15,074 nucleotides of DNA, from contig JAFYYO010000394.1 of NCBI GenBank assembly GCA_017557475.1, positions 1 to 15,074 of the forward strand, in the 5' to 3' direction. The notes beneath the pieces were generated by a model. It had not been told where the DNA came from and made no database searches. It worked only from the letters and a program-made list of their open reading frames with translations. The DNA comes from Bacteroidaceae bacterium. Its GTDB lineage: Bacteria > Bacteroidota > Bacteroidia > Bacteroidales > Bacteroidaceae. The position numbers and the translations under genes were made by a program. Each line of letters starts with the position of its first letter. Within the stretch, counting starts at the first letter, position 1. Positions 5,392 to 14,933 of the stretch are shown in pieces.

Positions 5392-5415
5392 ATTTCTTGC
5401 TTTATGTCAAGAAAA
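5392..5415. promoter_or_regulatory. Candidate operator dyad upstream of dapF
   Basis: The dyad TTTCTTG-N8-CAAGAAA (5393-5414) lies within a 24-bp block that matches 14846-14869 upstream of the likely glnN at 21 of 24 positions. It starts exactly 80 bp before the -7 element (5472), the same distance as in the other promoter. A shared activator or repressor site for nitrogen-assimilation genes is inferred. Confidence 0.65.
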
Positions 5416-5471
5416 TCGAAGAAAACTAAACAAATTGTATATTTAATATAGGGTGTTATTGCAATTTGTGT

Positions 5472-5479
5472 TAACTTTG
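5472..5479 (+). promoter_or_regulatory. -7 element of the dapF-dapL-gltBD promoter
   Basis: TAACTTTG followed by C matches the Bacteroidota TAnnTTTG element. No good TTTG is found 19-21 bp upstream (the region reads GGGTGTTA), so the promoter may depend on an activator. Transcription would begin near 5486, about 45 bases before the dapF ATG. Confidence 0.7.
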
Positions 5480-5530
5480 CGGCTGAAAACATTGCAAATT
5501 GATAGTTCGGACTCAAAAATCGCAGTCAAA

Positions 5531-6430
5531 ATGGCACAAAAGATTCGCTTCACGAAGATGCAGGGCGCAGGCAACGACTACATCTACATCGACACATCTT
5601 TATATAAGATAGAAGATCCGGTCGCTGCTGCCATCGCTTGGAGTAACCGACACACGGGCATCGGAAGCGACGGACTGGTGCTCATCGGACGCAGCCCCAT
5701 TCCTGAGGCGGACTTCTCAATGCGCATCTTCAACGCCGACGGCTCGGAAGCCATGATGTGCGGAAATGCGAGTCGCTGCATCGGTAAGTACCTCTACGAG
5801 AAAGGGTTAACGAGGAAGACGGAGATTCGTCTGCTCACGCTTTCGGGCGTAAAAATCCTCAAACTGAAGACGAAGGATGGTAAGGTGGAAAGTGTGACCG
5901 TGGATATGGGCGAACCGATTTTTGAGAACTCTCAGCAGTTTCTGCCTTGTAGCGAAGAACTGCCAAATGGAAGTTTCGTGAGTATGGGGAATCCTCATTA
6001 CGTTATCTTTGTTGGCGATGCGGAACTCTCTGATGTCGCAAGCAGAGGTTCGCGATTGGAACACCACCCTGCGTTTCCTGAGCGCGCTAACATCGAGTTT
6101 GCCGAAATGCGTCCTGACGGCATTCGAGTACGCGTTTGGGAGCGCGGCAGTGGTATTACAATGGCCTGTGGCACAGGGGCTTGCGCTACGGCTGTGGCGG
6201 CCTGTAAGTTAGGAAAGACTGGGCGAAAGAGTCGCATCATCATGGATGGCGGCGTGCTGGAAATTGAGTGGCGCGAGGCAGACAATCATGTCTATCTGAG
6301 CGGTCCAGCGGAGTTTGTATTCGAAGGGGAGATTGAGATTGGGGGAGATAATGGAGTAAAGGGAGTAAAAGGAGTGAAAGACGATAGTTTGGGATGCTCA
6401 GTTACAGAACTTTTCAACGGAAAAATGTAA
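5531..6430 (+). CDS. dapF: Diaminopimelate epimerase
   Basis: DapF converts LL-diaminopimelate to meso-diaminopimelate, the direct precursor of lysine and of peptidoglycan cross-links. Both catalytic cysteines are present: Cys77 in MMCGNASRC and Cys213 in TMACGTGACATA, each in the usual family setting, and the N terminus (FTKMQGAGNDYIYID) is typical. The start MAQKIRFTK at 5531 is chosen because an upstream GTG at 5453 would place the promoter inside the gene. The protein is 299 residues, against about 275 for the family. The excess is a C-terminal tail after PAEFVFEGEIEI that includes GVKGVKGVK (275-283), encoded by a 9-bp tandem repeat, so it looks like late-added low-complexity sequence. 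dapL follows after 53 bp and the two are surely one operon. Confidence 0.95.
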   Translation: MAQKIRFTKMQGAGNDYIYIDTSLYKIEDPVAAAIAWSNRHTGIGSDGLVLIGRSPIPEADFSMRIFNADGSEAMMCGNASRCIGKYLYEKGLTRKTEIRLLTLSGVKILKLKTKDGKVESVTVDMGEPIFENSQQFLPCSEELPNGSFVSMGNPHYVIFVGDAELSDVASRGSRLEHHPAFPERANIEFAEMRPDGIRVRVWERGSGITMACGTGACATAVAACKLGKTGRKSRIIMDGGVLEIEWREADNHVYLSGPAEFVFEGEIEIGGDNGVKGVKGVKDDSLGCSVTELFNGKM

Positions 6431-6470
6431 TGTCCTTAACTCCCTTAACTACTTTAACTTCTTTAACTCC
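6353..6470. repeat. 9-bp periodic inverted repeat spanning the dapF end and dapF-dapL gap
   Basis: Three 9-bp units (GGAGTAAAG, GGAGTAAAA, GGAGTGAAA) at 6353-6379 face four inverted units of the type CTTAACTCC at 6435-6470. The left arm is inside dapF and in frame, giving Gly-Val-Lys three times. The right arm fills most of the spacer before dapL. The transcript could fold into an imperfect stem of about 27 bp here. Confidence 0.7.
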
Positions 6471-6483
6471 AAATAAAAAGAAT

Positions 6484-13603: not shown

Positions 13604-14282
13604 TAGCTCTCTGCAAGCCATCCAGGAAGCAGGCTGCTTGTGCTCCGTCCATTTGAACATGATGGAATTGGAAAGACACAGGCAAGGTCGTCTTGAACAG
13701 ACCTTTGCGATACTTGCCCCAAGCCAGGAACGGATTGTTGTAGATGCCGTTGTACTGGTTCACGATGCAGTCGAGTTCCGTCTGAACCACAGCAGAAGTG
13801 CCGATAACCATGTAGCCTTCGAGCGTAGTGTTCTTGCTTTCTTTGGCGGTCTTAACTGTCAGTTCCAGATAATCATGGTTGAATTGCTGCAAATCGTCGG
13901 AGAAAGGAATGTCGCACCAACTGATGCCACCATTGCAATTGCCCACAATAACGTTGATGGCGAGCTTGTCGTAGCGGAACAACTTGCCATTTTCAGGCAA
14001 CACATAGAACTCCTTTACCTGACTCGCAGCTTTGCCGATACACCAGCACATCAGCATATTGAATTTCATTCGAGCCTGCTCATGCTCGGCAGAGCTGATG
14101 CGAGCATCGCTTTGCTCTCGCTTACTCGCAGCCTTGAACTTCAAACCTGACTGCTTGCGGACCTTCAGCAAATGGCTGACGTCAAACGTTTTCATCAGCG
14201 TCACCATCGGCATCGATGATTTCATCCACATGTCGAAGGCATATGCCCGGCTTGTATCTTTAGGGTTGATTTCCTGCTTCAT
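13581..14282 (-). CDS. Chloramphenicol acetyltransferase-like O-acetyltransferase (CatA-like)
   Basis: This 233-residue protein is of the CAT family, which acetylates small molecules with acetyl-CoA as a trimer. The catalytic motif HHxxxDG is intact (F-HHVQMDG-A, His208 as general base, Asp212 structural), preceded by KTTLPVSFQ. The N-terminal pattern (NPKDTSRAYAFDMWM...PMVTL) is typical of a Bacteroidota subgroup not known to give resistance; the real substrate is unknown. Residues 50-74 form a 25-residue charged segment (KAASKREQSDARISSAEHEQ and on) that breaks the usual GLKF-NMLM join. It is encoded by a 75-bp insertion. Without it the length would be about 208, normal for the family. The gene runs convergent to gltD with a 23-bp overlap and has its own promoter. 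Confidence 0.8.
   Translation of the reverse strand: MKQEINPKDTSRAYAFDMWMKSSMPMVTLMKTFDVSHLLKVRKQSGLKFKAASKREQSDARISSAEHEQARMKFNMLMCWCIGKAASQVKEFYVLPENGKLFRYDKLAINVIVGNCNGGISWCDIPFSDDLQQFNHDYLELTVKTAKESKNTTLEGYMVIGTSAVVQTELDCIVNQYNGIYNNPFLAWGKYRKGLFKTTLPVSFQFHHVQMDGAQAACFLDGLQRAIKTLSLK
14059..14143. repeat. 75-bp in-frame insertion with 10-bp direct repeats in the acetyltransferase-like gene
   Basis: TTGAATTTCA (14059-14068) and TTGAACTTCA (14134-14143) differ at one base and lie exactly 75 bp apart, as for a target duplication. Between them is an imperfect dyad around ATGCTCG and CGAGCAT, and TTTGCTCTCGCT, close to TTGCTCTCGCT in the intergenic DNA near 5288. The insert is 25 codons and keeps the frame. 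Confidence 0.65.
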
Positions 14283-14310
14283 CGTTTGATGGATTCCTCT
14301 TTATAATATG

Positions 14311-14318
14311 CAAAGATA
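14311..14318 (-). promoter_or_regulatory. -7 element of the acetyltransferase-like gene
   Basis: On the minus strand TATCTTTG followed by C matches TAnnTTTG, about 28 bases before the ATG at 14282. The -33 region is poor (no TTTG at the right distance), so the promoter may be weak or regulated. Confidence 0.6.
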
Positions 14319-14845
14319 AGCATTTTCGTTTGACTTTGCCTCGTTTTTGCAGAAAAAGTTCCTTTTAATGAAATTGACAAAATGTCATCGAATAGGGCAG
14401 ATTCGCTTACACTTTGAATTTTCATAACCCTCAAAGAAGCGCGTGAAATTGGAAGGCCTGTACCTAGGGTAAGGACAATGAGAGTGCTTCGATTTTCTGC
14501 AACCAATTGAGGATGCAGGGCTTATAAATTTCGACTTCAAAATAGGCTGGTCAAAACCTCTCTTTTGATGTGCAAAAAGACTGATTTTCGCCTGTTTTGA
14601 TGGCCGACTAAACACGTCAAATTGCCAAACTAAGCACGTTATGATTGAAAACACTCCCTGTTATGTTTGCCAACGCTCCCTGTTAAGTTGGCTGACGACC
14701 CCAGTTAAGGTCGTTTTCGAGGCGTTTTCTTATCAAAACGACTCCGTTTCATGTCAAATTCCAAAGTGTCAAATAGAAAGAGAAATGGACAAAAGAGTTA
14801 TCATTTGTCTAATTTCGTTTTGTTCCCATCGACCTTTTATGCTGC
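14319..14845. other. Intergenic region upstream of glnN
   Basis: No protein gene is seen here. It holds the short dyad TGACA-AAA-TGTCA (14375-14387), a small hairpin TCAAAA...TTTTGA near 14550-14570, and the five-unit 22-bp array. The rest is AT-rich without recognisable features. Confidence 0.5.
14601..14711. repeat. Five tandem units of about 22 bp upstream of glnN
   Basis: Units at 14601-14622, 14623-14645 (23 bp), 14646-14667, 14668-14689 and 14690-14711. The shared pattern is TGCCAAC, about 7 variable bases, then GTTAAGTT; the fourth unit is TGCCAACGCTCCC-TGTTAAGTT. Each outer part is dyad-like (AAC...GTT). The same unit type and length occur at 4914-4979. Confidence 0.65.
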
Positions 14846-14869
14846 ATTTCTTGTCCTATGTCAAGAAAA
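14846..14869. promoter_or_regulatory. Candidate operator dyad upstream of glnN
   Basis: TTTCTTG-N8-CAAGAAA within a 24-bp block matching 5392-5415 at 21 of 24 positions; the three differences fall together in the N8 spacer. It starts exactly 80 bp before the -7 element at 14926, as in the dapF promoter. Confidence 0.65.
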
Positions 14870-14901
14870 ATTATAAAATGTGAACATTCTGCACATAAAA
14901 C

Positions 14902-14933
14902 GTTGTATAAAATGACAAAATGCGCTACCTTTG
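14902..14933 (+). promoter_or_regulatory. glnN promoter
   Basis: TACCTTTG (14926-14933) is a perfect -7 element. GTTG at 14902-14905, 20 bp upstream, serves as an approximate -33. Transcription near 14940 gives a leader of about 65 nt. The bases after the -7 (TTTGCAGCAGAAAC) resemble those of the dapF promoter (TTTGCGGCTGAAAAC). Confidence 0.7.

Follow-up and report, generated by a model that had tools for sequence, protein, structure and literature searches.

FNR-type boxes at a fixed distance from the dapF and glnN promoters of a Bacteroidaceae bacterium are predicted sites of a CRP/FNR-family class I activator

Results

Two dyads upstream of nitrogen assimilation genes

The subject of this analysis is a DNA stretch of 15,074 nucleotides from a Bacteroidaceae bacterium with a rumen-type genome (assembly GCA_017557475.1, contig JAFYYO010000394.1), here called the window, and in particular a dyad that occurs in it twice, once upstream of the genes dapF-dapL-gltB-gltD and once upstream of glnN. 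The two copies most likely represent a distance-constrained operator of a dimeric regulator, which is predicted to be an activator. The genes and promoter elements are given below. The -7 element has the form TAnnTTTG, which is the sigma-ABfr consensus (PMC7366714), and the term box is used for the FNR/CRP-type core of the dyad together with the adjacent A-tract.

3-638, same direction as dapF: 3' part of the ammonium transporter gene (amt)
693-1403: gene for a small protein, following amt
5393..5414, plus strand: dyad TTTCTTGCTTTATGTCAAGAAA, with the FNR/CRP-type core TTGCTTTATGTCAA at 5397-5410 and an A-tract at 5412-5414
5472..5479, plus strand: -7 element TAACTTTG of the dapF promoter, 61 base pairs (bp) after the box core
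5531..6430, plus strand: dapF, diaminopimelate epimerase (TIGR00652)
6394..7653, plus strand: dapL, LL-diaminopimelate aminotransferase (TIGR03542); frame as listed, true start uncertain
7661..12151, plus strand: gltB, glutamate synthase large subunit (NF008730 in both pieces)
12185..13603, plus strand: gltD, glutamate synthase small subunit (TIGR01317)
13581-14282, minus strand: CatA-like O-acetyltransferase, family 2, between gltD and glnN (NF040637, above its cut-off)
14847..14868, plus strand: dyad TTTCTTGTCCTATGTCAAGAAA, with the core TTGTCCTATGTCAA at 14851-14864 and an A-tract at 14866-14868
14926..14933, plus strand: -7 element TACCTTTG of the glnN promoter, 61 bp after the box core
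15006..15074, plus strand: start of glnN (type III glutamine synthetase), cut by the window end; the start is like that of GSIII_N loci

A sequence-only reading of the window had singled out two 24-bp blocks, at 5392-5415 and 14846-14869, as a candidate operator of a nitrogen regulon. Its description of the two sites was verified. The blocks agree in 21 of 24 letters, with all three differences in the spacer, and each begins exactly 80 bp before its -7 element (5472 and 14926), while the dyad TTTCTTG-N8-CAAGAAA itself, perfect at 5393-5414 and 14847-14868, begins 79 bp before it. A further copy is absent from the window; with up to three mismatches just two more matches were found, both with exactly three. 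The downstream genes are also those that had been named: dapF-dapL-gltB-gltD were recognized by family models, and the frame from 15006 opens with MANDLRFQVVGEAFKKKP, resembling the start of the type III glutamine synthetases of relatives. One in-frame stop codon, at 8420-8422, interrupts the gltB gene, and each half matches a glutamate synthase model.

Perfect dyads are expected 0.0005 times per window (Markov resampling of the window, 4000 runs), compared to the two that were observed. In the eight relatives that rank nearest by DapF identity (L001-L008) a box-like site lies at the same place in every case; it precedes TAnnTTTG in seven of them and TATCTTCG in L004. Because all eight relatives have this site, the window dyads are more than a chance occurrence. 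Promoters of the NtrC/sigma-54 type were ruled out, since a -24/-12 element is missing from both promoters: the 11 window matches with up to two mismatches (8.0 expected) include none within 5392-5531 or 14846-15006.

The conserved core of the element

To compare dapF upstream regions, the loci of 80 relatives and the window (81 regions in total) were searched for TAnnTTTG within 260 bp, and 47 of the 81 contained it. A strong box, i.e., one with 13-15 of 15 consensus positions, is situated 61-62 bp before TAnnTTTG in nine of the regions (the window, L001, L002, L003, L005-L008 and L017), while sites with 11 or more of 15 positions were classed as weaker. Beyond the eight nearest relatives, most dapF upstream regions are devoid of the box. 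The exact dyad TTTCTTG-N8-CAAGAAA was found in none of the 80 relatives' regions at zero or one mismatch, and at two mismatches it appeared at the right place in two of them (L005, L006). It was thus rejected as too narrow a description of the operator; the FNR-type core recovers eight of the 80 regions plus the window.

In the nine dapF loci, which had been chosen for having the box, pairwise identity is 74% over the 18-bp box, in contrast to 33% and 36% in the flanks, and their consensus is TTGAYnTAnRTCAAnAAA. At positions that were not part of the search pattern, 66 sites showed the central TA at 70% and 82% and the promoter-side AAA at 73-83%, while the mirror TTT on the upstream side was weak (30-41%). 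What is conserved is the core TTGAY-N4-RTCAA, followed on the promoter side by an A-tract; this is a box of the FNR/CRP type, and the arms TTTCTTG and CAAGAAA consist of this core plus flank. The 14-bp CRP/FNR-type dyad TTGAY-N4-RTCAA is present in relatives. Each of the two window sites deviates from it by one mismatch in the left half-site (TTGCT and TTGTC), while the right half-site GTCAAGAAA is complete. The glnN promoter of the nearest relative (L102) has the same form as the window, TTTCTTGCTCTATGTCAAGAAA, and two other relatives (L097, L098) have ATGAC-N4-ATCAA at this promoter.

Of the sequence-only reading, the interpretation as a real, distance-constrained operator for a dimeric regulator therefore stands, whereas the recognized core and the nitrogen regulon had to be given up. 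Both arms had been taken as the operator, yet conservation extends to the promoter-side AAA but not to the outer TTTC at the upstream end.

Spacing and recurrence in the family

The distance between box and promoter was determined with a free-gap scan of 16 genomes, in which TAnnTTTG was allowed 45-75 bp from the box; a control with the reversed pattern gave 7 matches. Among the 126 matches, the gap was 59-63 bp in 106, 70-72 bp in 12, 51-52 bp in 4 and elsewhere in 4, and both window sites have a gap of 61 bp. The side groups are about one helical turn away from the main group, so that the spacing is helically phased. Repeats near 10 bp are needed by a protein that contacts RNA polymerase from upstream, and class I CRP promoters have an upstream dyad at a helically phased distance. 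The box, too, lies upstream of the core promoter at a constant, helically phased distance, and its geometry is that of the class I activator type: its centre precedes the -7 element by about 68 bp and stays on one face of the helix.

A box 59-63 bp before TAnnTTTG was found 758 times in 190 of 301 genomes of the family, compared to about 10 matches for the reversed-pattern control, as read from the match table. A scan of 12 genomes (nine that carry the box according to their dapF loci, two included because of a divergent box, and G009) yielded 62 matches versus one for the reversed control, with none in G009. Looser patterns were less specific: TTG-N6-GTCAANAAA gave 49 hits in 10 genomes versus 19 for the reversed control, and GTCAANAAA plus the -7 element, which occurred in 197 of 301 genomes, also gave visible background in the control.

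Genes downstream of the box

Downstream genes were looked up for a part of the listed matches, and an unchosen sample comprised 30 of the 758. One of these 30 loci was assigned to a nitrogen gene (dapF). In the 12-genome scan 15 of 62 matches precede dapF, glnK or glnN, judged from frames or coordinates, a share that is no unbiased measure of enrichment, since the genomes were mostly picked through dapF. With these numbers the proposed nitrogen regulon was not borne out; the network is family-wide and broad, not nitrogen-specific.

According to the frames and families downstream, the nitrogen targets in register are glnK-amt, dapF and glnN. In G001, G003, G007, G015 and G187, dapF and glnK are divergent and share a single intervening box that is in register with both promoters, and in G077 the gene to the left of the box lies beyond the contig end. 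The window differs from this arrangement, as its amt and dapF genes have the same direction. Three genomes have the box before a gene for a V-type ATPase subunit E-like protein; the match in L299 falls short of the curated cut-off, and L307 and L310 were assigned by sequence similarity. Further targets are a purF-like protein, whose match is likewise under the cut-off, a protein with a DUF2582 winged helix, rsmA, leuS, a cupin-HTH (helix-turn-helix) protein and a subtilase. FopS small RNAs follow an in-register box at L306:1586-1655 and L311:1587-1653 (RF04319, 63.4 and 75.5 bits; threshold 56). Other spacings were found at glycogen synthase (38-39 bp, two genomes), asd (54 bp) and a 16S rRNA operon (71 bp); in L142 (G015) the box is situated 71 bp before TACCTTTG, upstream of the 16S rRNA gene.

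In Bacteroides-type genomes the gene behind the box is repeatedly one for a small secreted protein with no Pfam family. On visual comparison, the small protein encoded at 693-1403 of the window looks similar to one that L280 and L281, from two other genomes, encode 350-400 bp downstream of a box promoter. No Pfam family was found for it or for its L280 lookalike, and about 4 kb of other genes separate its gene from dapF-dapL-gltB-gltD.

Several box promoters precede what looks like a non-coding RNA. In L138, L158 and L160 (about 1584-1910) a gene of this kind of about 300 nucleotides lies under the box, beside miaB or mutS; it ends in a terminator-like hairpin and shares TTTTTCATGGTATTAG with FopS, and two of the three loci gave weak BTnc231 Rfam matches below threshold. 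For one set of such genes, Rfam at the gathering threshold returned nothing apart from one 16S rRNA. In L161 and L291 a frame of about 25 codons and then a terminator-like hairpin lie between the box promoter and an EttA-like gene, and the box may serve the short frame rather than ettA. In six loci (L257, L261, L263, L271, L274, L275) the -7 element of the box promoter is followed by TGTTGTAAAACAT, which is like a Cur half-dyad near the start; joint control of these promoters by two CRP-family proteins is possible.

Prevotella-type relatives have a different motif at the same position

In Prevotella-type genomes a motif of approximately the form TTWCAAWTTGWMA replaces the box at the dapF and glnN promoters and keeps its distance of about 62 bp to TAnnTTTG:

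dapF loci with TTWCAAWTTGWMA: L012, L022-L024, L039, L040, L044, L046, L055, L056
glnN loci with TTWCAAWTTGWMA: L081-L083, L090, L091, L095

The sequence-only reading had named as a refutation that close relatives would lack the element or have it at random distances. The outcome was mixed: in close relatives the box is present at an unchanged distance, but at these genes the Prevotella-type relatives are devoid of it and have the other motif there. This pattern is best described as an apparent operator replacement with conserved promoter geometry at nitrogen genes. As a broad regulon TTWCAAWTTGWMA was rejected: 60 of 301 genomes contain it, almost always as a single match, versus about 16 for the reversed control, and the motif is thus either narrow or too loosely written. 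In P. ruminicola 23 the ammonium supply changes the transcripts of glnK, amtB, glnN and gltBD 26- to 69-fold (PMC5552732). This strain may be of the box or of the TTWCAAWTTGWMA type, and therefore the transcript changes speak for a regulation of the genes rather than for one by way of the box.

A candidate regulator

CRP/FNR proteins were listed with PF13545 and PF00027, and two groups were followed. Proteins of the ETLSR type have about 200 amino acids, match cNMP_binding as their only Pfam family, and have a short C-terminal part with TPETLSR. Their gene adjoins lepA in the loci nearest to the window (lepA named by family in L315). Existing names go no further than "Crp/Fnr family transcriptional regulator" or "CRP-like cAMP-binding protein", and the L315 protein had no NCBIfam match at 1e-10. 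The closest solved structure by sequence is 3dn7 (6.7e-27, C-terminal part included); an AlphaFold model had a mean predicted local distance difference test (pLDDT) score of 57.5 and was not used. The second group, the CrpPg type, has an SNMTT helix and matches 2gau at 7e-62; 2GAU is CrpPg, PG0396 (PMC12040651).

Co-occurrence was determined in the 301 genomes, with protein presence defined as E<=1e-40. Boxes occur in 167 of the 174 genomes with the ETLSR protein and in 23 of the 127 without it. Resolved by both proteins, they occur in 137/143 genomes with both, 30/31 with the ETLSR type only, 16/50 with the CrpPg type only and 7/77 with neither. The ETLSR contrast thus holds with and without the CrpPg type, while the CrpPg type adds nothing in genomes that have the ETLSR protein. 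Part of the confidence in the regulator comes from two genomes: G003, with boxes at dapF and glnK, has an ETLSR-type protein as its sole PF00027 match, and G009, which has the CrpPg type only, has no box. Taken together, the results strongly favour a regulator of the CRP/FNR family, with the ETLSR type as the best candidate.

The same site and mechanism could be used by another binder of the CRP/FNR family, a CrpPg/Cur-type paralogue or a minor FNR-like protein. Most box genomes indeed encode more than one CRP-family protein, and among genomes without the ETLSR protein the CrpPg type has a weak effect (16/50 versus 7/77). However, among ETLSR genomes the CrpPg type makes no difference, and the Cur operator TATGTTnTAnAACATA, with the consensus wwwTATGTTnTAnAACATAwww (PMC6989115, PMC3878776), has no match in the window with up to three mismatches. 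At its own start the CrpPg-type gene bears a Cur-like dyad (three mismatches to the consensus) and not the box in five of six promoters, which suggests that the CrpPg type is Cur. On motif and co-occurrence, Cur/BT4338 and the CrpPg-type paralogue were rejected as the main binder, and a different family member in general seems unlikely, although it is the best of the alternatives.

At its own promoter the ETLSR gene has a box 9-11 bp before TAnnTTTG in six of 66 regions (three of six Bacteroides-type genomes and three of 60 others, both sets picked from listed matches); for the set of 60, 0.17 were expected from shuffles. This box overlaps the core promoter, a repressing position, as would be expected for negative autoregulation.

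Discussion

From the directly observed site, conservation, sequence logic, phasing, recurrence and co-occurrence we infer activation by binding and the identity of the binder: with a probability of roughly 0.7, both elements are sites of a dimeric class I activator of the CRP/FNR family, most likely the ETLSR protein, that raises transcription of the genes for glutamine synthetase and glutamate synthase (GS-GOGAT). A dimer of the ETLSR protein would bind to the box and, from the class I position, would recruit the polymerase to promoters of the primary sigma factor, and this recruitment would raise the transcription of the GS-GOGAT genes. The signal could be the nitrogen or energy status, a guess from the targets.

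Several observations weigh against this reading. At dapF there are 12 weaker sites at other distances, both window sites deviate in the left half, and the window contains no excess of the loose core, with 22 copies compared to 26.6 expected. Boxes are present in the 23 genomes without the ETLSR protein mentioned above and absent from seven of the 174 with it, and the probabilities are weakened because the genomes are related and partly incomplete and are thus no independent sample. Prevotella-type genomes keep the protein (L240, G024) without a box at dapF and glnN; G024 has nine boxes elsewhere. The own-promoter box is rare (3/60) and was found in none of the 16 readable lepA-linked loci of 30. 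Finally, the ETLSR helix was read as FNR-type with a recognition rule that we presume to apply here.

A non-CRP dimeric regulator or a DNA-bending protein might instead recognize box plus A-tract. The A-tract is asymmetric, on the promoter side, and TTGAC dyads alone are no proof of a CRP-family binder, but the boxes track one CRP-family protein across the 301 genomes and their sequence equals the FNR-type motif wyTTGACnnnnGTCAArw given for HcpR (PMC1274295), so that this explanation is improbable. A repressing or dual function of the box at the nitrogen genes is still a little less probable. Repressors may use dyads too, CRP-family proteins commonly both activate and repress, and at the gene of the candidate itself the box lies over the core promoter, but at nitrogen genes it is far upstream of the core promoter and helically phased. 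A regulator of the Lrp/AsnC type was also set aside; E. coli gltBDF is under Lrp control (PMC1784095), and a protein of 155 amino acids, Lrp-sized by guess, gave weak HTH_Crp_2 matches in several genomes.

The FNR-type box, the class I geometry and the CRP family are of already known kinds. FNR and HcpR boxes (TTGATnnnnATCAA; PMC1274295) have the same 14-bp dyad with a 4-bp centre. According to this source, HcpR controls hcp and frdX in delta-proteobacteria and the HcpR2 motif given for Bacteroides is GTAACnnnnGTTAC. The latter was rejected for the window, where both sites read TTGnn-N4-GTCAA, and unlike for HcpR the targets here are nitrogen, V-type ATPase, purine and small-RNA genes. BT4338 (Cur/MalR/Crp) is likewise a CRP-family global regulator of the same bacteria with an nTAn centre in its dyad; it differs in motif, in its carbohydrate target genes and in the protein itself. 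The likeness to class I CRP promoters has its limit in that the distance was measured here to the Bacteroidota TAnnTTTG element and not to mapped start sites. NtcA of cyanobacteria is a CRP-family activator of nitrogen assimilation genes that uses the NtcA box GTA-N8-TAC near -41. In contrast, the candidate apparently lacks NtcA membership, the L315 protein having no NCBIfam match at the cut-off given above, and its network is broader.

In the open-licence literature searched, neither a named transcriptional regulator of nitrogen assimilation in Bacteroidota, Bacteroidaceae included, nor a description of the box was found. The network, the spacing rule on Bacteroidota promoters, the nitrogen branch and the predicted regulator are apparently unreported. 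It is tempting, if doubtful, to speculate that a lepA-linked FNR-like global activator ties ammonium assimilation to energy supply by the V-type ATPase, purines, FopS and rRNA, and that in Prevotella-type genomes another regulator acts at the same position, so that the geometry would have outlived the regulator. For FopS, a regulator is thought possibly to enhance transcription of the small RNA (PMC11697453), and the ETLSR protein is a candidate for this role. Together, the operator, the spacing rule and the candidate protein make the switch-on of nitrogen assimilation in Bacteroidota testable, and they point to a second global CRP-family network, beside that of Cur, in a dominant family of the gut and the rumen.

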